Of a stretch of 10,166 bases of DNA, positions 294-10,166 are shown in pieces. Position 1 is the stretch's first letter; each line of letters begins with the position of its first letter. The stretch is from Thermogutta sp. (GTDB lineage: Bacteria > Planctomycetota > Planctomycetia > Pirellulales > Thermoguttaceae). Both the position numbers and the translations under genes were made by a program. The notes under the pieces were generated by a model. It did no database searches. It was not told the origin of the DNA and worked only from the letters and a program-made list of their open reading frames with translations. Location of the stretch: assembly GCF_014359955.1 (NCBI RefSeq), contig NZ_JACIYL010000074.1:1-10166 (forward strand). Reading direction: 5' to 3'.

Positions 294-1877
294 CTAATCG
301 AGCAGGGTCTCCGGAATCTGCGTGGTCCCGGACGCCGGGACGGCCCGGTCCAGGCGGGCCCGCCAGCCCAGATAGCGTTCCAGACAGGTTTCCCACTTCC
401 CTCCCAAGTTGTTGCTGGCCGTGATCGTCCAGGTGTCGCCCGCGGATGCCTTCCAGCCCGAAACGCCCCCGACATACGGCCCGCCCTGATAGAGTCGGGA
501 GGCCTCCACCAGGACCAGCTCGTCGATCCCCACTGACTGGCCGGCATTGATCGGCGTGGCCGCCGTGATTACGAGGACCACCGGATCGCTCCCGTAATCG
601 ACGGGGAGACGGAAGGCCCCCGTGATCCCCGTGTGGCCGGTCGTGGAGAGTCCCGCCACGCTGATACTGACCCGATTGAGGTTCCCCGCCGAGTCGGCCA
701 GTGCGGTCTCATTGATCGACCGCCGCAGCTCGAAGTTGATAGTCCCGGTGGCTGTGGCCGAACGGCGGGCCCGCACAAAGAACAGATAGACCCGGCCCGG
801 GGTGAGGCGGACGGGCTGATACAGGGTCGTCTGTTCGCTGCCATTCCCCACTAACTTCAAACTCCGCCCGCGATAGCTCAACGCGTCCCCCGCCCGCGTC
901 GTCGTGATGCTCACCTGGGGACTTGTGCCACCGGTGAGCCTGTTGATGACCGCCAGTTGCGAGATGTCCCCCGGCGTGTTCTCGAAGGTCACGGTGAAGG
1001 GATTCGTTCCCGTGACCGTCACCGAGGCAAGACCGGGAATCCCGCGGAGGGCCGTCTGAATGTCCAAGGCCGTGGCCGCCGGCCCCAGGGGGCCTGTCTG
1101 CCAGACTTTTCCCCGGGGATCGGTCCAGGTGAGAACAAAATAGCCGCCGGTGGGGCTTCCCGTGATCGTGATCTGCTGCTGTTCCGGCTCCGTCACAAAA
1201 ATCGTTGTTCCTGGTGTCCCCGTGTGGATCGTCCAGCCCTGCGGGGTGTTGGCGGCAACGATGTCTTCAAACCCGGAATTTGCGAGCAGCGACTGGTTCA
1301 CTGTGGTGATGGGGAGGGTGAAATAGGCCCCGCTGCCCTGGGGCCAGTTGCGGTCGCCGCGTCCCTGGGGCGCGGTCCGGCTTCCCGCCACGCTCAGTGT
1401 GCTGCCGTCACTCCGCACGCTGATCGTCTCGGGATAGACCCATACGGTTTCGCCCCGGGCGTTGCGGTCGGTAACGGCAACGATGGCATCGCCCTGGTTT
1501 GCGGTTCCCGGCGTGACGGTGAGCGACTTTGTTGAGGCCGCGAAATAATAACCGCCCGCCACAAGATCGCTGCGGATCACCTCCAGGGCCTGATCGAGTG
1601 TGCGATAGGTGAGGTTCTTTTCCTCGAGATAGCGGCGGATCAGACTGATCGCGGCGGAGACGATCTGGTTGTGGAGAGCGGCCCCCGAGCTATCCCAGGC
1701 ATTGTGTCCGTTGATGGCCGCCTGGACCTGGGGGGCCAGGTCGAGGACCGCGTCCAGGGCCTGGCGCTTCGTCCAGACGCTTCCCGTGCGGGCGGCATCG
1801 ACCGCCTGCCCCAGGGCAAAGAGTCTTCCCAACAGGTTGAACAGGCCGCTGTCGCTGGAAGGGGTGTACAGGTCCAT
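294..1877 (-). CDS. Virion surface or fibre-like protein with split carbohydrate-binding-like module
   Basis: The product is 527 residues. Residues 1-110 are mostly helical and may anchor it to the particle. Residues 115-195 look like beta structure. Residues 197-228 (N-SGFED ... PQGW) resemble the first strands of a CBM4_9/galactose-binding-like sandwich. Residues 329-460 resume it (YRGRSLKLVG, then LYQPVRLTPGRVYLFFVRAR, ending GIDELVLVEAS). Between them, residues 229-328 match a beta domain common in large surface and phage proteins: ITITGSPTGGYFVLTW, then ALDIQTALRGIPGL, then VTVTG...FTVTF, then LTGGTSP. Residues 461-527 form a distinct C-terminal piece. I infer a host-binding or capsid-decorating structural protein. 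The ATG at 1877 has no SD but a TACAAT 7 bases upstream. A TTG at 1907 is the only earlier start and has no better signal. Family assignments are from pattern memory. Confidence 0.75.
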   Translation of the reverse strand: MDLYTPSSDSGLFNLLGRLFALGQAVDAARTGSVWTKRQALDAVLDLAPQVQAAINGHNAWDSSGAALHNQIVSAAISLIRRYLEEKNLTYRTLDQALEVIRSDLVAGGYYFAASTKSLTVTPGTANQGDAIVAVTDRNARGETVWVYPETISVRSDGSTLSVAGSRTAPQGRGDRNWPQGSGAYFTLPITTVNQSLLANSGFEDIVAANTPQGWTIHTGTPGTTIFVTEPEQQQITITGSPTGGYFVLTWTDPRGKVWQTGPLGPAATALDIQTALRGIPGLASVTVTGTNPFTVTFENTPGDISQLAVINRLTGGTSPQVSITTTRAGDALSYRGRSLKLVGNGSEQTTLYQPVRLTPGRVYLFFVRARRSATATGTINFELRRSINETALADSAGNLNRVSISVAGLSTTGHTGITGAFRLPVDYGSDPVVLVITAATPINAGQSVGIDELVLVEASRLYQGGPYVGGVSGWKASAGDTWTITASNNLGGKWETCLERYLGWRARLDRAVPASGTTQIPETLLD

Positions 1878-1884
1878 ACTGCGG

Positions 1885-1890
1885 ATTGTA
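1885..1890 (-). promoter_or_regulatory. Possible -10 element of a leaderless promoter
   Basis: TACAAT on the minus strand ends 7 bases before the ATG at 1877. That gene has no SD and follows a non-coding gap of about 130 bases, the longest in the window. Transcription starting about 7 bases after a -10 would begin at or next to the ATG and give a leaderless mRNA. No convincing -35 is seen at 16-18 bases; a TTGACC upstream is only 11 bases away. Moderate to low certainty. Confidence 0.4.
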
Positions 1891-2010
1891 CACCCCACAC
1901 CGGTCAAAGTTGGGACAAGTTATCAGCCACCGATGCGAGTGGCCGGGATGGATGGCCATAACGCCGACAGCTGAGTCAGCCGGGCGAGACGAGAGACGTT
2001 TTTCGGAAAG

Positions 2011-2292
2011 CTAGAGAATGAGGTCCTTGATCGCTTCCCACTCGTTGTCCCAATAAGGTTCACGATATTGATAAAGAGGATTGTCCTTGTAATTGGCACC
2101 GAAGATCGACTCTGTCAGCCATTGTTTCATCTTCTGTTCGTATTCCGCCTCGGCCTTCTTGTACTCCTCGGGAGGCAGGTCCTCCGGGGGCGGTTTGGGC
2201 TCCGTGAGTTTGGTGGGAATTTGCACGAAATTCTTCGCCAGTTCGTAAGCCTCTTCTAAGGTTTTCGGTCGCCTTCCGGTGTGTTCATTCAC
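2011..2292 (-). CDS. 93-residue charged hypothetical protein coupled to the portal gene
   Basis: The start is a GTG at 2292 that overlaps the portal stop as GTGA. GGAGG sits 7 bases upstream, so this start is preferred over the longer frame reaching 2448, which would lie deep inside the portal gene. The product is highly charged. It has an N-terminal helix (RRPKTLEEAYELAKNFV), a Pro/Glu-rich hinge (EPKPPPEDLPPEE), a Lys/Glu-rich helix (residues about 42-60) and an aromatic tail with several Tyr and Trp (residues 66-88). No membrane segment or known motif is seen. Coupling to the portal with its extra C-terminal domain suggests a partner of that protein, but this is inference only. The function is unknown. 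Confidence 0.8.
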   Translation of the reverse strand: MNEHTGRRPKTLEEAYELAKNFVQIPTKLTEPKPPPEDLPPEEYKKAEAEYEQKMKQWLTESIFGANYKDNPLYQYREPYWDNEWEAIKDLIL

Positions 2293-4598
2293 GGCGAATC
2301 CTCCACGAAACCGATGGGGTAGTCTTTTGAACGGAACTCCCCATAATATCCACTTTCCGCCCGTCGTCGAATCTCCTCCGGGTCTCGGGTATCTCCCACG
2401 TACCGCATGAAATAAATCGGCGGGCGGTCGTGCTTTTGGTAGTCCCAACCCGCGGGGGCGTACTGGTCATCCCAGGCCACGACTTTGTAAACCCGAAAAC
2501 CGTACTTATGATAGATCCTCGCCAAACCTTCGCCAATGCAATCCAGCGTCGTGGCCCCTTGGCTGATGGCCTGGATAACCGCGGCTTGGCCTGCTCCGGG
2601 AGTACCACCCGGGATCCGGAAGACATTGCACAGGTCGTATTCCCCAGGTTTGCCCTCCCAGGGGACGAGCATATAGCCCGCCGTCCCGTCCGCCGTCTGG
2701 AAGATCTTGGCGCCCTTCTTTATTTTATCGCGGATCTCGTCGATGGAATACAACGTCAGGAAAGCCCTCCGATCGGGTGGTAACTTGTCGCGGAATTCGA
2801 CGAAGCGCTCGGGGGTCGTTTCGTGGAAATCAACTTTTGGGATTCCCTCTCGCTTTTTACCTGGAGCCTTTGTTTTCTCTTGTTGCGGGGCCTCTTTTTT
2901 CTCACCGGGTGGACGAGTCGTCGCCGTGGGTCCTGGCCGTTCCGGACGGGAAGGAGCTGGAGTGGTGGTGGTTGGCTGGGAAGGGCCGGGGCCGCGGCCT
3001 CCTGAGGCCGCCCTACCCACGACCTGCCACTGATGAATTCCCGCTGTGTTGCGTAGCCAGGCATAGATTGTGTCCTTGAAGATATACGTTTCGCCATCCT
3101 GCGGGTCGGGCGGGGCCCCGGGCGGGATCCAGTAACGTTCTACCTTCGCGTCCTGCTCCGTATACTGGGCCGTCGGCACGCTCGTCTCCAGGGAGCGGTA
3201 GGCCGGATTCTGGAGGAATTCCTCCTCCGGTCCGGGATCGGAGATGTCCAGGAGCTCGCGGAGGTCGGCGGCCCGGATCTTCAGTCCCATGTTGAAGGCC
3301 GCCTGGAGGGCCTCCAGTTTTTCCCGCGTATCGTCCCGCTCCAGTTCGATGACGAAGCGAAAAGCGCGGGCATCCAGCCCGGGCCAATTCCAGCCCACAA
3401 GGCGGCGAACCACCTGATCCGTGATCGTCTCCTGGAGATTGATCGCATCATAGCGGACGATCTGGAGGAAGGTGTCCAGGTGAATCGACGCAAGGTTCGA
3501 CCCCAAGCCGGTCGCATGGGCCTCCGTGGTGAGGGTTTGTCCCAGAATGTACCGCTTGATCTGGTGGCCGAAGTAATCGGTGATGATCTCCTTGAGGGCC
3601 TGGGCCCCGGCCAGCGACGGCTCGATCCGTTCCACGCCGTAGACCGCCCCTTCCATCCCCGGAGGCCTCGGCACAAGCAGGATGTTCTTGTTGGGCCCGG
3701 CCCGCTCCGCCGCGGCCTGGCGGAGTTCCTCCCGGGCCTGGGGATTCCCCGCGGGGTAGTACCAGAGTTCGATCCCGAAGGCACTCCGCTCCAGGAACTC
3801 CATCAGCCAGGCCAGGGCGTCTTGCTTCTGGTACCACGTCCAGTAGATCCGGTCGCGGATCCCCACCCCGAAGATTCGCGAGGCGTTGCGTGGTTCCTCG
3901 TACTCGCCGTCCTCGATGTAGTGGCGATGAACGACGAGGAGTTCCCGTTTCCCCGGCGGCGGGAAATAGGCCCAGCCGAATTCCGTGGACTCGATCCATT
4001 GTTTGTGCTCGCTATGCCACCGGGATACCTCTTCACTGAGGCCGGACGTGCCACCCACGCGGATCCCCAGGCCGTCGAAGAGGTCGCCGACATCGGCATC
4101 CACCTTCCAGACCAGTTTATCGCCATGGATGGGAATCCACGACTTTATAACGACAACCTTCCTGCCATCGATCCAGTCCCAGGTGTAGCGGTTGGCGACT
4201 GCGTAACGGCCGAACCAGATGGCGTGGAGGAGATTTTCCCGGTACTGCGTGAATCGCGGGATGCGGCGGAGAATCTTTTCCAGGATGGTACGGGCCTCAT
4301 CATAGGCCGGCTCGTCCGTATCGCACTCCACCCGCCAGTCGAGCAGGGCCACCGCCCGCTGCCGCAGCTCGACGCATTCCATGACGGCGGCGTCGGCCCG
4401 CATCTTGATGGCATTCTGGCGGGCAATCTTGAGGGCCGTATCGGAAGGCCAGTAGACCCGGGCCGTTCCACCCGTGAACAGACCCAGAAAACCTGCCGCA
4501 TGGGGCAAGATGGTTTGTCCCTGCCCCGGTGGCATGCCGGGGATCTCGGTCACTCCCTCCGCGGTGACGAGATAGAGGGCATCCCCGGCCATCATCAT
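2289..4598 (-). CDS. Mu gp29-like (DUF935) portal protein with C-terminal GNAT-like domain
   Basis: The product is 769 residues, well above the roughly 450-550 usual for this portal family. Residues about 50-480 look like the portal. They include the helical stem/wing region and the diagnostic segment at 349-405: ILGQTLTTEA, then a Gly/Ala/Ser stretch, then LDTFLQIVRYDAINLQETI and RLVGWNWPG. The portal forms the ring at the capsid vertex through which DNA is packaged and ejected. Residues 485-530 form a small unit (YIFKDTIYAWLRN). Residues 531-582 are a Pro/Thr-rich, then Lys-rich linker. Residues about 590-735 look GNAT-like: a beta strand (DLCNVF), a Gly-rich turn (PGGTPGAGQ), and LARIYHKYGFRV, which resembles the 'YxxxGF' end of acetyltransferases. 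Three successive ATGs (4598, 4595, 4592) overlap the upstream stop; no SD is seen, so re-initiation is likely. The portal call is firm; the GNAT call is structural inference. Confidence 0.88.
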   Translation of the reverse strand: MMMAGDALYLVTAEGVTEIPGMPPGQGQTILPHAAGFLGLFTGGTARVYWPSDTALKIARQNAIKMRADAAVMECVELRQRAVALLDWRVECDTDEPAYDEARTILEKILRRIPRFTQYRENLLHAIWFGRYAVANRYTWDWIDGRKVVVIKSWIPIHGDKLVWKVDADVGDLFDGLGIRVGGTSGLSEEVSRWHSEHKQWIESTEFGWAYFPPPGKRELLVVHRHYIEDGEYEEPRNASRIFGVGIRDRIYWTWYQKQDALAWLMEFLERSAFGIELWYYPAGNPQAREELRQAAAERAGPNKNILLVPRPPGMEGAVYGVERIEPSLAGAQALKEIITDYFGHQIKRYILGQTLTTEAHATGLGSNLASIHLDTFLQIVRYDAINLQETITDQVVRRLVGWNWPGLDARAFRFVIELERDDTREKLEALQAAFNMGLKIRAADLRELLDISDPGPEEEFLQNPAYRSLETSVPTAQYTEQDAKVERYWIPPGAPPDPQDGETYIFKDTIYAWLRNTAGIHQWQVVGRAASGGRGPGPSQPTTTTPAPSRPERPGPTATTRPPGEKKEAPQQEKTKAPGKKREGIPKVDFHETTPERFVEFRDKLPPDRRAFLTLYSIDEIRDKIKKGAKIFQTADGTAGYMLVPWEGKPGEYDLCNVFRIPGGTPGAGQAAVIQAISQGATTLDCIGEGLARIYHKYGFRVYKVVAWDDQYAPAGWDYQKHDRPPIYFMRYVGDTRDPEEIRRRAESGYYGEFRSKDYPIGFVEDSP
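2300..2304 (-). promoter_or_regulatory. SD fixing the GTG start at 2292
   Basis: GGAGG on the minus strand lies 7 bases before the GTG that overlaps the portal stop codon. It lies within the last portal codons and decides the start of the 93-residue gene. Confidence 0.75.
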
Positions 4599-5098
4599 GT
4601 CCCAGTGTAAGGCTTGTAGATGTAACCTTGCGAATCAGGATAGCACTCGAAGGCGAGCATGAGGCGGCTGTGGCGGGACCCCTTATTGATTTCGAACTGC
4701 CCACGGACCACGGCCACCGGGAGGTCCCAGCTCGCCACGTTCGACTTGAGGACCAGGCGAAAGGCCTTCTGGCCGGCGACCATCACGATCCCCGCCTCGT
4801 AGGCCAGTCCAGGCTGCGGCGTGGTGACCGAGATGCGGGCCGCCAGTTGATCGGCCACCGCGGCGTCCCACTTGACGAGTTCCATCGTGACCCGCACCCG
4901 CTTCCCCTGATAGACGAGATCAATCGGCGGACCGCTGTCTCCTCCGCGTTCATCGGAGTGGATCTCTTCGTAAAAATCCTCCTCCTGGATGCGGACACCG
5001 TTGGCCGTGTATCCCAGAATCTGCAGGGCCGTATCGGCGCATTCCTGGGGGCCGACCTTCACCAGCACAGCACCGGAGACCTGAACAGAAATGGGCAT
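4595..5098 (-). CDS. Probable tail-tube-like or head-tail structural beta protein
   Basis: The product is 167 residues. The ATG at 5098 follows AAGGAG with an 8-base spacer, in the 16-base gap after the adaptor gene. The sequence is beta-rich with no membrane segment. It opens ISVQVSGAVLVKVG, then has LGYTANGVRI, FYEEIHSDERGGDSGPP and LVYQGKRVRVTMELVKWD. It ends with a further beta region (FRLVLKSN to FEINKG) and an aromatic tail. The 'LGYTxDGV ... DxxG ... GPP ... hydrophobic-beta ... KWD' layout resembles phage tail-tube and related beta-barrel virion proteins. Its place directly after the head-completion adaptor fits a tube or neck role. The family cannot be fixed by eye; a capsid accessory protein is possible. 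It overlaps the portal start by 4 bases (ATGA). Confidence 0.7.
   Translation of the reverse strand: MPISVQVSGAVLVKVGPQECADTALQILGYTANGVRIQEEDFYEEIHSDERGGDSGPPIDLVYQGKRVRVTMELVKWDAAVADQLAARISVTTPQPGLAYEAGIVMVAGQKAFRLVLKSNVASWDLPVAVVRGQFEINKGSRHSRLMLAFECYPDSQGYIYKPYTGT
4604..4609 (-). promoter_or_regulatory. TANNNT element before the portal start
   Basis: TACACT on the minus strand lies 5 bases before the first of the three portal ATGs and 8 before the second. The portal gene has no SD. The element falls inside codons of the upstream gene, so it may be chance. It is listed because the same arrangement precedes the genes starting at 8404 and 1877. Confidence 0.2.
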
Positions 5099-5114: not shown

Positions 5115-5609
5115 TCAACGAGCCATGCGATCGGGGCGGCTCGGATAGTACCCGTCACAGCGATCGACAAGCAGATTCATCCGCTCGATCTCAACCAGGG
5201 TGGGGGCCTCGGTCCTGGGCAGCCCGGCTTCCTGCGCCCCCGGCGTGGCGAAGATCCGCTCGCCCTTGGCAAGCTGAGAAAGCTTTTCCTCAACCCACTC
5301 CTGGGCCGCCCGGTAGTTCTCCTCACCAAACACGCTCACGCGGGCGGCCGCCAGATTGAGCACGGCCCGGGTGCAGACCAGCCGCTTGAGAAAGGCCTGG
5401 TCATCAGGGTCCAAATTGCTCAGGTCCTCGATCGTGTAGCGCCGGCCCTGGAGGATGGCGGAGCGGACCTCGCCGCTCGCATCGGTCAGCGCCGAGAGAA
5501 TCCGCGTGTTGCTGGCGAGATTCGTCTCGGGTGTGCCGTCGTCGCGGGCCAAATCGGCCAGGAGCCGACTGTCGAACCGATCAATGAGGTCCTGCACACT
5601 GGCAAGCAT
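5115..5609 (-). CDS. Head-completion/adaptor protein, Mu gp36-like (DUF1320 type)
   Basis: The product is 164 residues. The ATG at 5609 comes 2 bases after the capsid stop with no SD, so translation probably depends on re-initiation by ribosomes finishing the capsid gene. The pattern matches small helical adaptors of the Mu gp36/HK97 gp6/SPP1 gp15 type: 'xxxLIDRFDxxLLADL' at 6-20, then 'ILSALTDASGEVRSAILQGRRY' at about 37-58, then a long helix rich in Ala/Leu (residues 75-92) and a Trp-containing amphipathic helix (residues 99-116). Such proteins form a ring under the portal to which the tail attaches. The C-terminal 45 residues (Pro/Glu/Arg-rich) are extra. Position after the capsid gene supports the role. 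The exact family name is inferred. Confidence 0.78.
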   Translation of the reverse strand: MLASVQDLIDRFDSRLLADLARDDGTPETNLASNTRILSALTDASGEVRSAILQGRRYTIEDLSNLDPDDQAFLKRLVCTRAVLNLAAARVSVFGEENYRAAQEWVEEKLSQLAKGERIFATPGAQEAGLPRTEAPTLVEIERMNLLVDRCDGYYPSRPDRMAR

Positions 5610-5611
5610 GA

Positions 5612-6640
5612 TCAGGTGATGTTGGTGATCAGGACGGCCGCGGCGGGGGCCACGAGGCGCACGTCGTAATCCTCGACGACGCGGCCGGAGATGCGGCGGT
5701 TGTCTGGATCGTCCTTCTGTTCGACGGTCATCTCTTCGTACATGAACAGGCAGCAGGCCGCGAAGTTGATGACGTTGGCGGCTCCTTCCATCCCACCCGG
5801 ACGGGCCAGCAGGACGGCCTGGTTGTCCGGCCAGACGGGCGCCACGGCCCGCGTGCCTCCCTTTTTCGACGTCACCTTTCTCGTCTCATCGACGACCACC
5901 TTGAAACCGTAGAGGCTCTCCGGGACGCCGTAGGAAACATTCGTCCGCTCACTGGCCCCGCGGAGGAAGTCGAACCCGGCCTGGTACTTGATCATTTCCG
6001 TCAGTTCTGGAGCGGCGGCGATCTTCTTAGCCAGACCGCTGCCCATGACGAGGACCAGGTCGTCCTTGGTGACCATCCCCAGGGTATCATCGAGAATCTT
6101 TTCCGCCGCCGCGGTGAGCGTTTTCAGGATGTACATGTTCGTCTGGGTGGAGCTCGACCAGGCCCCGAAGCCGCTCGTCGCGTTGATCACGTGGTCCGCG
6201 GCATACTGCGTGGAGTCCAGCAGGACATTGGCGGCCAACTGGGTCCGCAGGGTCATGGCCTGCTGGGCCTTGGCCGCCGCGTGGCGGGCCACGATCTCCC
6301 AGGAGGCCTGCCGGGCGGCCTTCCAGCCGATGGTGAATTCGAAGATGTAGCGCTGCGTCCGGTACGGCCGGAACTCGAACTCCTGATTGCCAGCATGGCT
6401 CCGGCGGGCGTCCGCGCCGTCGTACCAGACGAAATCCCGGGCATCGCTGTTGAGGATCCGCCCCGCCTCATCGGGGTCCAGATAAATGTAGTAACCGGTG
6501 TCTTTCTCAACCGGCACGACCTGGGTGTACTGCGCGACCTTGAACCGCTTCGGGTCACGGGCAAAATCAACAACCAGTTTGTCCTTGGCCAGGGCCACCG
6601 GGACATAGGTGTTCGAGCTGGCAGGCATGACCTGAGGCAT
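5612..6640 (-). CDS. Major capsid protein, HK97 fold
   Basis: The product is 342 residues. The ATG at 6640 follows GGAG with an 8-base spacer. Features of the fold are visible. A polar N-arm/E-loop region runs to about residue 100. A long helix spans about 108-142. A P-domain segment (KTLTAAAEKILDDTLG ... DLVLVMGSGLAKKIAAAPELTEMIK, residues 173-218) has the usual 'voltage' of a predicted strand then helix. A loop reads GVPESLYGFKVVVDE (residues 238-251). The end (VVEDYDVRLVAPAAAVLI, residues 321-338) is typical of these proteins. There is no long N-terminal delta domain, consistent with the separate scaffold upstream. It builds the icosahedral shell. The specific capsid subfamily cannot be set without a profile search. 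Confidence 0.9.
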   Translation of the reverse strand: MPQVMPASSNTYVPVALAKDKLVVDFARDPKRFKVAQYTQVVPVEKDTGYYIYLDPDEAGRILNSDARDFVWYDGADARRSHAGNQEFEFRPYRTQRYIFEFTIGWKAARQASWEIVARHAAAKAQQAMTLRTQLAANVLLDSTQYAADHVINATSGFGAWSSSTQTNMYILKTLTAAAEKILDDTLGMVTKDDLVLVMGSGLAKKIAAAPELTEMIKYQAGFDFLRGASERTNVSYGVPESLYGFKVVVDETRKVTSKKGGTRAVAPVWPDNQAVLLARPGGMEGAANVINFAACCLFMYEEMTVEQKDDPDNRRISGRVVEDYDVRLVAPAAAVLITNIT

Positions 6641-6675
6641 TGAAGAGTCTCCTTCGTTCTAGCAGTCCCATTCCA

Positions 6676-7092
6676 TCACGTTAAGGCAGGTCGAACCTTC
6701 TGCATGGGCAGGACCAGGCAGAGGATCTTCTGCCCGGCGGCGGTGGCCGCCTGAAGCGCCACGGCCCCGTAGTTCTGAATGGTCGTTCCGGTCGTGGCCA
6801 CGGCAACCGCCCGCCCCTGCGAGTCGCTCTTCAGCAGCGCCCCTGCGGAGATGGCGCCGCCGGCTTCCACGAGGCAGAGTTCGCCGACCGAATAGACTTC
6901 CAGGGCCTGGCCGGTCTCCGCCGCATAGACGGTGCTGACAAAGTCCTGGAGGGGCGCCTTGTTCGAGCCTTCCTGGGCCACCCCGATGATCTCGCTGTTG
7001 TCTCCGGCCTGGGCCACCGTGTTCTCGCCCGACAGCGTCACGAACCGGCTGGGACTGATGTTCCCGCTGGCTTTGAAACTTAAAATGGCCAT
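6676..7092 (-). CDS. Capsid decoration (cement) protein, DUF2190-like
   Basis: The product is 138 residues, about the usual size for this family. The start chosen is the ATG at 7092, which has AAGGAG 7 bases upstream. A GTG one codon earlier would leave a spacer of only 4. The sequence has the family's pattern: FKASGNISPSRFVTLSG near the N-terminus, then IIGVAQEGSN, then a Gly/Ala-rich centre with LCLVEAGGAISAGALLKSDSQGRAV and GAVALQAATAAGQKILCLV near the end. These beta-rich proteins bind the outside of the expanded shell and stabilise it. Its position directly before the major capsid gene is the usual one. Confidence in the role is good; in the exact family it is moderate. Confidence 0.82.
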   Translation of the reverse strand: MAILSFKASGNISPSRFVTLSGENTVAQAGDNSEIIGVAQEGSNKAPLQDFVSTVYAAETGQALEVYSVGELCLVEAGGAISAGALLKSDSQGRAVAVATTGTTIQNYGAVALQAATAAGQKILCLVLPMQKVRPALT

Positions 7093-7099
7093 CACACGA

Positions 7100-7105
7100 C
7101 TCCTT
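7100..7105 (-). promoter_or_regulatory. SD deciding the decoration-gene start
   Basis: AAGGAG on the minus strand, 7 bases before the ATG at 7092 and 4 before the GTG at 7095. The spacing favours the ATG. Confidence 0.7.
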
Positions 7106-7111
7106 CACAAA

Positions 7112-7822
7112 TCAGAGTTTTCCCGTCTTGACGGCTTCCAGGATTTCCTCGTAACTGCAGCTTTCGCCGAGCTCCTTCTTCCGCTTGGCGATCTCCAGGG
7201 CCCGTCGGCGGACCTCCTCGCTGTACTTCTCCCGGGACTCGTCCAGTTCGACCGCCGCGCCTAGGGGCGGCAAGCGCTCCCCGACCGGGATCTGCTTGTA
7301 GTTCTCGCGGATGATCGCCAGGTGGTCTTTGAACTGCTCGTCGGTCATCCGCGAGTAGCGGCACCGCTCCACCTCCTTCTCCAGGTCGAAGGCGTAGACC
7401 TGCCGCAACTGAACAAGCTGGGAATACCGCTCCGCGTTGACCCGCGCGGCCCGTTCGGCCTCCACGTCCCGGCGGAGTTTTTCCAGTTCCGTCCGCTGCC
7501 GCTCGAGGTGTTGCTCGAGCAGGCGGTAGCGTTCCCGCAGTTCGCGGTCGGCGTCCCGTTCGCGGCTGGCCGCCGCCCCAAACATCTTCCGCTGGTCTTC
7601 GGTGAGGGGTTTGCCGTGCACGGTGCCGTCCTCCAGGATCTGTTTCGCCTTCTCGGGGTCAATCTTGTCCGAGGGCTGGTCCTCGTACTGCTGTTGCGGG
7701 TTATCCCCCTCGGTCTCGCCGCCACCCTGAGCCTGCTCCTGGGCCATCTTCTTTTTCACCCATTTCACCCAGTCGAGCTCGTTGAACGCCTCGATGATCT
7801 GTTTCAGGAGGTCCTGGTCCAT
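7112..7822 (-). CDS. Nested in-frame scaffold protein (internal start)
   Basis: An in-frame ATG at 7822 (codon 195 of the protease gene) is preceded by AAGGAG with a 9-base spacer. It falls exactly between the protease part and the coiled-coil scaffold part. It would give a 236-residue scaffold lacking the protease. It starts MDQDLLKQIIEAF and carries the GKPLT motif, a coiled coil of about 45 residues and the charged C-terminal tail. Mu (I and Z) and lambda (C and Nu3) use the same design, making many scaffold copies per protease. The parent gene has no SD of its own, which makes the internal site stand out. Whether it is used is inferred. Confidence 0.6.
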   Translation of the reverse strand: MDQDLLKQIIEAFNELDWVKWVKKKMAQEQAQGGGETEGDNPQQQYEDQPSDKIDPEKAKQILEDGTVHGKPLTEDQRKMFGAAASRERDADRELRERYRLLEQHLERQRTELEKLRRDVEAERAARVNAERYSQLVQLRQVYAFDLEKEVERCRYSRMTDEQFKDHLAIIRENYKQIPVGERLPPLGAAVELDESREKYSEEVRRRALEIAKRKKELGESCSYEEILEAVKTGKL

Positions 7823-8404
7823 TGTGTATCGCTCCTTGTCTTGGGACGGGACAGTCGAAACAAATGTGTTGCTTCCGGCGGGCATGACCGCCGCATAACG
7901 CTCGACAAGGACGTTCCCCTCACGCTCCGAATAGAGCAGCGTCAGCCCCATATCCAGCCGCGGCGGTTCCGCCCCCAGGAGGGCAATCGGATCGAGGTGT
8001 GTCTTGCGGAGGTCGTCCACGAGGCGAAACTCCGGACTGCGGCGGGGATAGCGTTTGAGGACGTCTTTGTATTCCTGAAAGATGTGAAAGTCCGCTAGAA
8101 TCGCCGGTTTTCCGGCAAATTCACCCAGGCGGAACGGCCCCGCGAAGCCCACAACCTCCGGTTGCGGTTTATCCTCTCCCGGCGCCGGTGTGTGTCCGAG
8201 GGTGATGACGGCGTAATCGCCCGTCTCCTCAATGCGCCGGTTGCAGTTTTCGACGATGGCGGCCAGCTCGTCCGGGCCGAAAGTGACCCGCCGTCCGTCG
8301 GACAGCTCCGCTTCGTGCGCCACGAAGACCGGCACGTCCCGGACGTTGAAGAACTCCTCTTCAGGGAAGGTCTTCGGTTTAGCGATCTCCAGAAAACTCA
8401 CCAT
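7112..8404 (-). CDS. Capsid maturation protease fused to scaffold
   Basis: The product is 430 residues. The N-terminal part (about 20-185) looks like a Mu I-type head protease. It contains ITLGHTPAPGEDKPQPEVVGFAGPF, with His71 as a likely catalytic residue. It then has HIFQEYKDVLKRYPRRSPEF, with Ser123 as the likely nucleophile, and DPIALLGAEPPRLD. The His-Ser arrangement recalls herpes/S78-like prohead proteases. The C-terminal part is the scaffold: a GTVHGKPLTEDQRKMFG motif at 260-276, an Arg/Glu coiled coil at about 283-328, and a charged tail. The enzyme would cut the scaffold and itself during prohead maturation. No SD precedes the ATG at 8404; an extended -10-like TGTTATATT ends 6 bases upstream. 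Catalytic residues are inferred from pattern, not proven. Confidence 0.82.
   Translation of the reverse strand: MVSFLEIAKPKTFPEEEFFNVRDVPVFVAHEAELSDGRRVTFGPDELAAIVENCNRRIEETGDYAVITLGHTPAPGEDKPQPEVVGFAGPFRLGEFAGKPAILADFHIFQEYKDVLKRYPRRSPEFRLVDDLRKTHLDPIALLGAEPPRLDMGLTLLYSEREGNVLVERYAAVMPAGSNTFVSTVPSQDKERYTMDQDLLKQIIEAFNELDWVKWVKKKMAQEQAQGGGETEGDNPQQQYEDQPSDKIDPEKAKQILEDGTVHGKPLTEDQRKMFGAAASRERDADRELRERYRLLEQHLERQRTELEKLRRDVEAERAARVNAERYSQLVQLRQVYAFDLEKEVERCRYSRMTDEQFKDHLAIIRENYKQIPVGERLPPLGAAVELDESREKYSEEVRRRALEIAKRKKELGESCSYEEILEAVKTGKL
7832..7837 (-). promoter_or_regulatory. Internal SD for the nested scaffold start
   Basis: AAGGAG on the minus strand, inside the protease-scaffold gene, 9 bases before the in-frame ATG at 7822. 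It matches the SD used by most other genes in this cluster. Confidence 0.6.
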
Positions 8405-8446: not shown

Positions 8447-9586
8447 TCACGATAAACCCAGCAACGGACGCAGCGAGGGCCGCGGCGGCTTCACGACCTT
8501 GAAGACCTGCACAACCTCCAGGGGGAGTTTCGACTCCAGCCACTTCCCCTCGTGAAAGACGACCCGCGGACGGAAGACCTCGGCGATATAGGGTTTTCCC
8601 GTCCTCGGCCCGCGGATCGTGGTAAGGGCCGCCTGACGTGGGACGTACCCCCCGGTGATTCCCGCCAGGAAATAAGGCTTTTTGTGGCCCGATACGGTCC
8701 CGCGCTCGCGGAGATGGTCCCACACCCAACCACCCTTCGATCCCGCCTCGAGGAAATCCAAAAACTCTTCCGGCCAGACATCGCGATAGCCGTAGAGGGA
8801 ACCGGGGAACCGGACAAGCTGACCCTTCCGCTCGGTTTCCGCCCAGAAACGGACATAGAGAATGTGATTGTCGATGTCGTAGCCGATGGAATGGACGTTC
8901 GATGAGCGGACTTCGACCATTTCCCCGGTCACGATGGGATGGGTGACGGGGAATTCCCGTGGCGGCCCGAACCGCATGGGCACCATCACGGTGTTGGAAA
9001 CCCGCAACTGCGTCTCCCGTCGTTCCTGGACCTCCTCTTCGACCTCGCTCGGTTTCGGGGCAAGCCCTGCCAGCCCGAACTCCGGCCGTCGCAGGAGCAT
9101 GTCAGCATGCTCTTGCAGGAAGTAATAGGCCGCCCAGATGGACCGCTCCAGCTCCTCCTTGGGGAGCCGCATCTCTTTCGGCGGCAGGACTTCAAAACCG
9201 AAAGCCCGCAGGAAGTTGATCGCGTCAAGGACCGAGAGGCGGAAGCCGGGGGCTTCATACGGGGGTTTACTCAGCGGCTGAAAAATGTTTTCCAGGAGTG
9301 TGCCAACCGGCCCTAGCGAACGGAGGAACTGCTTCACGACCGTCCACTCGCTTCGCCCGGCGTACTGCTCAATGGCCCCCTTGATTTCCCAGATCGACGT
9401 GCCCATCAACTCCTTGAGCGTCATGCCCCGCTCCAGCTTGCGGAACAGCTCGCTGGGATCGACCGCTGGACGGGCCCGCCCCTGTCTGATGATACTGCCG
9501 ACCGGAGAACGGCGAAACGACTCCTCCAGCTCCAGACGGAGGACCTCATCGGCACGGCGAAAGAGCTTTCCAGGATCAAAGGCCAT
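8447..9586 (-). CDS. KTSC-domain phage protein in the portal slot
   Basis: The product is 379 residues. The ATG at 9586 lies just after an AAGGAGGAG, so the much longer frame reaching 10105 is rejected (its first part is a shadow of the terminase). Residues 1-170 are helical and charged, with repeated LF-R motifs near the start (GKLFRRADEVL, SELFRKLERG). Residues 175-200 are Glu/Arg-rich. Residues about 226-294 fit a KTSC domain: VRSSNVHSIGYD, then ILYVRFW, then GSLYGYRDVWPEEFLDFLEA, then GGWVWDHLRERG. KTSC is named after lysyl-tRNA synthetase and occurs in phage and stress proteins. The end (VPRQAALTTIRGPRTGKPYI...) is not recognised. Its place between terminase and protease suggests a packaging or assembly role, but no function can be assigned. 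Confidence 0.82.
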   Translation of the reverse strand: MAFDPGKLFRRADEVLRLELEESFRRSPVGSIIRQGRARPAVDPSELFRKLERGMTLKELMGTSIWEIKGAIEQYAGRSEWTVVKQFLRSLGPVGTLLENIFQPLSKPPYEAPGFRLSVLDAINFLRAFGFEVLPPKEMRLPKEELERSIWAAYYFLQEHADMLLRRPEFGLAGLAPKPSEVEEEVQERRETQLRVSNTVMVPMRFGPPREFPVTHPIVTGEMVEVRSSNVHSIGYDIDNHILYVRFWAETERKGQLVRFPGSLYGYRDVWPEEFLDFLEAGSKGGWVWDHLRERGTVSGHKKPYFLAGITGGYVPRQAALTTIRGPRTGKPYIAEVFRPRVVFHEGKWLESKLPLEVVQVFKVVKPPRPSLRPLLGLS

Positions 9587-9635: not shown

Positions 9636-10166
9636 TCACCAGTGCGACTCCCTTCGTGACATTGCCTCGGGTTTGTAGACGACGGTGTGGAGGAGCATCC
9701 GCAGGGCCATCTCCAGGGCGTCGGGGCCGTCGTCATGTTCGCCCAGCGGGAAGTCCTGGAGCTCGTCCACGAGTTTCCGACACCCCGGACTGGTGCGAAA
9801 ACGGAGTTCCCGATTGGCGAGATACGGCCCGATCCGACGGATCCGCATGATCTTGGGTTCCGTGTTCTGGATCGGCCAGACGGGGACCCGGACCCCGAAA
9901 CGCTCGAGACTCTCCCGCTCCATCTGCCGCTCCAGAAAGCCGTGGTACTGATTGGACTCCACGACCAGCCACCGCGGCCGGCACTGGTCGTACAGTTGCA
10001 GTGCCCGCCGGATCGTCTCTTCGGGTGTTCTCGGTTCGATCTCCGCATCAACGTAGAGGAGGGCCCGGTCGGGGGCCACACCCAACAGTACGATCGCTGT
10101 ATCATCGCCAGGCAGGTCCGCCCGGCCGCGACTGGGATCGATGGCCATGATCCAGTAATCCACGGG
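9636..10166 (-). CDS. Terminase large subunit, C-terminal nuclease domain (5' end beyond the window)
   Basis: The frame is open to the right edge, so the ATPase half lies outside the window. The visible 177 residues are an RNase H-fold nuclease of the Mu gp28/Terminase_6C type. They contain YWIMAIDPSRG followed by DDTAIVLLG, then LVVESNQYHGFL with a likely catalytic Glu. Next comes PKIMRIRRIGPYLANRELRF, the 'K-x-x-RI' stretch typical of terminases. FPLGEHDDGPDALEMALRML supplies the final Asp residues. This domain cuts concatemeric DNA during packaging into proheads. A GTG near the edge is not the true start, because the domain begins upstream of it. The sequence after HDDGPDAL is a short tail ending SRRESHW. 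Confidence 0.92.
   Translation of the reverse strand, partial: PVDYWIMAIDPSRGRADLPGDDTAIVLLGVAPDRALLYVDAEIEPRTPEETIRRALQLYDQCRPRWLVVESNQYHGFLERQMERESLERFGVRVPVWPIQNTEPKIMRIRRIGPYLANRELRFRTSPGCRKLVDELQDFPLGEHDDGPDALEMALRMLLHTVVYKPEAMSRRESHW

Follow-up and report, generated by a model that had tools for sequence, protein, structure and literature searches.

Why a phage portal protein should end in a domain that looks like an enzyme is the question raised by this locus. The window, by which we mean the whole analysed stretch of 10,166 nucleotides from Thermogutta sp., is a run of phage genes, all on the minus strand (contig 830 in a 4.64 Mb assembly). Its features are collected in Table 1. The KTSC-domain protein comes after the terminase piece in this run and has relatives in most of the 28 portal loci described below; its place is near the usual MuF position in Mu-like phages.

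Table 1. Coordinates of the genes in the window and of the regions within the portal protein.
Feature	Position	Strand	Basis
Terminase piece	9636-10166	-	
KTSC-domain protein	8447-9529	-	PF13619, 1.6e-10
Unassigned protein	7112-8404	-	
Cement protein	6676-7095	-	
Major head protein	5612-6640	-	
Mu gp36-like protein	5115-5609	-	
Unassigned protein	4595-5098	-	
Portal protein with GNAT tail, 769 aa	2289-4598	-	Open frame; PF06074, E 5.6e-46
Mu-type portal core, residues 65-451	3246-4406	-	PF06074 match
Small beta-hairpin module, residues 501-530, N-terminal to linker	3009-3098	-	Strands in low-quality full-length model
Pro/Thr/Lys-rich linker, residues 531-584	2847-3008	-	pLDDT, composition, homology ends
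GNAT-fold domain, residues 585-758, phrog_2563 family	2325-2846	-	AF2 model, PDB fold matches, phrog_2563
Candidate acetyl-CoA loop GGTPGAGQ, residues 664-671	2586-2609	-	Between beta 4 and helix 3
Tyr696, candidate general acid	2511-2513	-	Conservation 61/61 rows; weak YjaB alignment
Family signature WDDQYAPAGWD, residues 709-719, between beta 6 and beta 7	2442-2474	-	Conservation
93-aa acidic protein gene	2011-2292	-	GTG start overlaps portal stop (GTGA)
Tail-like protein	294-1907	-	

The predicted GNAT domain

An earlier note, made from the letters of the sequence, had described a portal core followed by a Pro/Thr- and Lys-rich linker and a separate folded domain. All three parts were recovered. 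The Pfam profile Portal_Mu (PF06074) gave 157.8 bits against a curated cut-off of 23.9 and thus identifies the protein as a Mu-type portal. The linker and the folded domain are borne out by composition and by the pLDDT profile: residues 531 to 584 include 12 Pro, 8 Thr, 6 Lys and 5 Arg among 54 (pI 10.6), and in the full-length model, which is poor overall (mean pLDDT 57.2, six sequences), pLDDT is below 50 for residues 532 to 583, with ten-residue means of 64 to 93 from residue 591 on. The interval 2289-2900, to which the note had drawn attention, holds the last part of the linker, starting at about residue 567, and the domain.

The note had gone on to interpret the domain as GNAT-like and had proposed structure prediction and fold comparison as a check. 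AlphaFold2 modelled the tail with a pLDDT of 97.1 and a pTM of 0.91, and the model gave fold matches to GNATs in the PDB. Its elements follow the GNAT order beta1-alpha1-alpha2-beta2-beta3-beta4-alpha3-beta5-alpha4-beta6-beta7. The three motifs on which the interpretation had been based sit at GNAT-typical places in the tail model: DLCNVF (655-660) is the strand preceding the CoA loop, PGGTPGAGQ (663-671) comprises the CoA loop and the beginning of the next helix, and LARIYHKYGFRV (692-703) covers the helix and strand after those of the CoA loop.

At the level of sequence the domain belongs to phrog_2563, whose profile matched residues 568 to 769 (E 2.5e-5) and all seven relatives scanned (E 1e-4 to 1e-16). 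PHROGs lists this family without a function; its assignment to the GNATs and its fusion to the portal are contributions of the present analysis. With E values up to 1, the window's own tail matched no Pfam GNAT model, and among 61 rows Acetyltransf_7 matched four and Acetyltransf_10 three (best E 0.0036). A sequence search of PDB chains returned CueR as the best match (E 0.042), followed by the GNAT YjaB (0.27). The CueR match was taken as chance because the fold search points elsewhere.

In the family alignment Tyr696, Gly681 and Pro715 are invariant (61 of 61 rows each), as is Trp718 (60 of 60), and residue 709 is Trp or Phe in all 61 rows. Tyr696, a candidate general acid, lies in alpha4 at the place where GNATs carry this residue, and a weak HMM match (E 0.27) pairs it with the Tyr in the FYKKVGF stretch of YjaB. 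The WDDQYAPAGWD loop is a possible acceptor-site loop. GNATs have the acyl-CoA loop motif Q/R-x-x-G-x-G/A between beta4 and alpha3. The GTPGAGQ of the window lies at this place, with its loop glycines kept in only 42 (G668) and 41 (G670) of the 61 rows; the basic residue is not kept, the window having Pro where Lys is the commonest residue ahead of the loop glycine.

The tail looks to be under purifying selection, with dN/dS values of 0.06 to 0.14 that were obtained in three of four pairs (none for L012) and at high dS (1.4 to 5.3). The ratio was 0.14 (NG86) or 0.11 (YN00) against the T. terrifontis-like copy, 0.08 against L010 (dS 2.7) and 0.06 against L011 (dS 5.3). Because relatives of the same tail were found and signs of purifying selection were seen, the tail is not a chance pattern. 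The observation of the earlier note is confirmed and its GNAT interpretation is supported by the model and the fold search; judged from sequence and predicted structure, the tail is likely to be an active enzyme.

Different tails on related portal cores

Among portal-sized database proteins the tail was present in 4 of 551 candidates, the window's own protein included. A search of viral contigs with the portal core identified 28 loci, among which L096/L097, L101/L102, L103/L104 and L105/L106 are near copies by eye. When tails were measured from the end of the tblastn core match, three loci had the GNAT tail, 11 had other tails of at least 197 residues (L107 and L109 run off the contig), 11 ended no more than 100 residues past the core match, and three were unreadable (L105 and L113 run off the contig, the frame of L117 is broken). 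The earlier note had allowed for the domain being the ordinary C-terminus of all DUF935 portals. This is ruled out by the 3 of 28 loci that carry it and the 22 that do not.

The cores of L096 and L100 are 79% and 76% identical to that of the window, yet they carry another tail. Ten of the other tails were scanned with Pfam, leaving aside the three GNAT tails and L097, which is the same as L096. Six passed the cut-off, as PBECR1, ART-PolyVal, InPase (twice, once with LPD1), topoisomerase IB and NUDIX. The tail of L100 matched S-AdoMet lyase below the cut-off, and three had no match at 0.01. This S-AdoMet_lyase match (PF23780, E 0.0016) was given by L100 and not by L096, as was a match to phrog_2226 at 0.0061. 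BLASTP aligned one stretch of the L096/L100 tail to the phage T3 gene product (E 0.046, a single comparison), and no phage record matched this tail at E 1; that it is SAM-lyase-like is a guess. The L107 tail matched phrog_2859, whose function is unlisted, at 1.1e-26, and no Pfam family. On the L100 contig the portal occurs twice, as a short-ended piece truncated at the contig boundary (3-539) and as a full copy with the SAM-lyase-like tail (5812-8265).

A tree was built from 24 cores, those of 22 of the 28 loci (L097, L102, L103, L105, L113 and L117 were left out), the window and P0003. On this tree the GNAT label needs at least three changes, gains or losses, and a single GNAT clade is rejected (p 6.9e-47). 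L119, with a tail of 235 residues and no family, was placed in the 'notail' group, which alters the count of that group and not that of GNAT. Core and tail identities to the window disagree in rank across pairs: 49% for the core vs 72% for the tail in L110, 56% vs 62% in L122, 69% vs 55% in L012, and 91% vs 82% in P0003. The place of the gene also varies: in L110 and L122 the GNAT-tailed portal comes before the homologue of the 7112-8404 protein, and in the window and L012 it comes after the homologue of the 4595-5098 protein.

Similarity of the window to its nearest differently tailed portals stops at residue 521 (L096) or 528 (L100), at the start of the linker. The hairpin module, whose strands span residues 504-507, 510-516 and 522-529 in the low-quality full-length model, is seemingly common to relatives with different tails. 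A local HMM of it was built from nine stretches whose similarity was chosen by eye; as it was built from stretches it finds, most of its matches arise by construction and its support is partly circular. Its only other matches, copies of the nine loci aside, were L009/L007 and L117. The hairpin might serve as a docking or packaging part.

Two further arrangements were observed. P0006 is identical to the window in 175 of 180 positions at residues 481 to 660, then in 17 of 20, and further on in 10 to 14 of 20 per block; the drop reflects either an exchange within the GNAT domain or a chimera made in assembly. In L101 the portal carries PBECR1, and a GNAT of the phrog_2563 family is found on a separate 341-aa protein (1305-2330), which by eye has retained a hairpin and linker resembling these, as though the cassette had left the portal.

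The small acidic protein encoded downstream (pI 4.8) has relatives beside the GNAT tail in all five loci of the window type: the window, L009 (T. terrifontis-like, its portal part masked as N), L010, L011, which has two copies, and L012, where the gene is cut by the contig end. Beside the other loci compared, non-portal relatives of the domain included, it was absent at E 0.001, some of these loci ending soon after the portal. When the small protein was used to search viral contigs, only those of L010 and L012 came up; L011 was missed, so the reach of this search is short. There was no PHROG match at 0.01. We regard the small gene as a candidate partner gene of the GNAT tail, whose product, in the cell that makes the virions, probably attaches to the GNAT domain, holds it in check or is a substrate for it; a chaperone, an inhibitor and an immunity protein are among the candidate roles.

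Other contexts of the domain and its possible role

When nine domain sequences were searched against viral contigs, 284 relatives came up and 80 of them were retained. Of these loci, 17 were scanned whole with Pfam and another 46 in the stretch upstream of the domain; 17 had no scan. Portal and domain shared one frame, over the Pfam cut-off, in 10 loci (not every portal family was tested in all 80): with Portal_Mu in L010, L011 and L012, with Phage_portal in L036, L038, L041, L021 and L039, and with Phage_portal_2 in L054 and L067. The Phage_portal_2 match of L013 was below the cut-off, as were both the portal end and the MuF domain of L019, whose 5′ end is open. The domain is carried by MuF or min_cap2 in L016 and L031, and MuF was present in 3 of the 46 upstream stretches. 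The frame was at least 1000 residues long in 45 of the 80 loci, some of them cut by contig ends. L014 has InPase and SNF2 helicase in one protein with the domain. In L021 a single frame of 1604 residues contains portal, Acb1 (anti-CBASS) and GNAT, Acb1 occurring in 1 of 46 records searched. DUF7178 (PF23802) was seen upstream of the GNAT domain in 6 of the 46 stretches (loci L015-L086).

Seven phage records matched the window tail. In three Microbacterium phages (including Caron gp4) and a Methanobrevibacter virus the match is at the end of an annotated minor capsid protein, in Limnohabitans phage DC33 it lies in a 9.4-kb gene, and in a haloarchaeal virus, recorded twice, it is a free protein. 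DC33 (PQ492659.1; L004, L006) is filed under Inoviridae, and its 39-kb genome with a 9.4-kb gene is unlike that family. Two other family members matched 192 and 203 phage records, mostly of Streptomyces phages, many of which, among the matches listed, are already annotated 'acetyltransferase'. The domain is the first annotated gene of the T7-like Pseudomonas phage PCS5, and in Alpheus its gene precedes the phage RNA polymerase; both match the family profile. This early position, together with the company of Acb1, ART and InPase, suggests that the domain may have a counter-defence or takeover role. PADLOC gave no match for the tail, for the tails of L096 and L100, or for the small protein (threshold 0.1 for the last). 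In the window's own assembly the family profile matched only the window itself, which does not support a recent copy of a host GNAT from the same family; phrog_2563 was found in 2 of 60 genomes (the window's own and one congener) and in 1 of 14 control genomes (Caulobacter vibrioides).

On balance we favour, by a modest degree of confidence, the reading that the tail is a GNAT-family acyltransferase of the phrog_2563 family, an exchangeable payload on the portal that is delivered at ejection and modifies a host or defence protein. In tailed phages the portal is a ring of 12 subunits, which would place the GNAT domains where the DNA leaves the head. The domain would reach the next host cell at ejection, perhaps after cleavage in the linker, and could there use host acetyl-CoA to modify its target in the first minutes of infection. 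As related viruses have other domains or none at the same spot, the ring itself appears to serve as a means of carrying helper enzymes into infected cells. Against this reading stand the incompletely kept CoA loop, the few matches to Pfam GNAT models, the empty PADLOC result and the fact that a portal as a rule remains in the virion.

The tail could instead act late in the producing cell, with the small neighbour or a protein of the head, tail or terminase as its substrate, and never be delivered. Such a function would suit the portal gene's place among head genes and also the small gene, whose start overlaps with the portal gene's stop in the window and which comes after the GNAT tail in all five loci of this type. 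The first place in PCS5, the very long frames, the neighbouring Acb1 in one of them, and the quite different tails or short ends of the portal relatives argue against it, and we hold a purely late role to be unlikely. A degenerate, inactive GNAT fold, kept as a portal spacer or docking element, would agree with a CoA loop that only two thirds of the family rows retain, and a fold by itself shows no activity; the invariant Tyr696, Gly681, Pro715 and Trp718, the sister portals that lack the domain and its occurrence alone make this quite improbable. Least probable is an acetyltransferase toxin for competing cells, like MuF toxins, with the gene of about 90 codons as immunity: the swapped C-terminal domains, the linked small acidic gene, found among the loci compared beside this tail only, and its two copies in L011 fit a polymorphic toxin, but the contexts in PCS5 and Alpheus point to phage early functions and the small gene was not seen beside the non-portal relatives compared.

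The delivered payload may be one case of a wider arrangement, which we put forward tentatively, as a possibility a little short of even. Mu-type portals would be a polymorphic delivery platform, in which core, hairpin and linker form a socket for different counter-defence enzymes: GNAT, possibly SAM lyase, PBECR RNase, ADP-ribosyltransferase, InPase and NUDIX, with Acb1 joined to GNAT on another portal family. The GNAT cassette would travel with its small partner gene, and a virion would carry up to twelve enzyme copies at the DNA exit. If this is true, the portal, usually regarded as a DNA channel, joins MuF as a second carrier of exchangeable effectors, and phrog_2563 gains a predicted fold, candidate residues of the active site and a testable role in the opening minutes of infection. 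Closely related portals with swapped tails form a natural comparison set, a similar virion with a different enzyme.

Comparison with known systems

The following comparisons relate to the accessible parts of the published main texts. Iyer et al. (2017; PMC5512222) described polyvalent proteins with two GNAT families, and PBECR, 2H and InPase fused to MuF or portal. The window and its relatives, in which an enzyme domain and a head-vertex protein form a single polypeptide, resemble these proteins, in which the same junction is found and injection is thought to follow, and they share with them the GNAT payload and the ART and InPase companions. They differ in that a GNAT on the portal is not stated in those parts of that paper. 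The first GNAT family of Iyer et al. (BAR32501.1) may be the phrog_2563-type family of the window tail; ART-PolyVal was found upstream of the domain in 2 of the 46 stretches, which fits the description of that family. Alice gp113, the solo example of their second GNAT family, had no match to our family profile.

Fusions of ART, 2H and NUDIX to portal or MuF were reported in 2022 (PMC9503650). Their architecture is the same, with other enzyme folds, and the accessible text does not describe an exchange of tails among close relatives, unlike what we see here. An enzyme-like tail on a portal, which the earlier note had held to be less expected, is instead recurrent, both among the scanned loci and in print (PMC5512222, PMC9503650).

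Phage GNATs are also known as free proteins. Rac (PMC7552054), a predicted GNAT of phiKMV-like phages that leads to host transcription shutdown, is a phage GNAT like the window tail, but stands by itself. LUZ19 Rac (gp28) gave no match to the family profile, so membership of the window tail in the Rac family was rejected, as was membership in that of Alice gp113. GNATs and Rac are discussed in a jumbo-phage paper as well. The MuF polymorphic toxins (PMC5576092) share with the window a structural N-terminus and an exchangeable C-terminal effector, and the MuF protein is portal-associated; unlike them, the carrier in the window is the portal itself.

The main-text parts accessible to us of the literature on portals with GNAT or effector fusions contained no portal-GNAT fusion, which is not proof of absence. 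The observation, which began with one GNAT-like end, has thus widened to a portal tail that is exchanged among relatives and is linked to a small gene, and for this tail delivery into the host, acyltransferase activity and a host or defence target are proposed.
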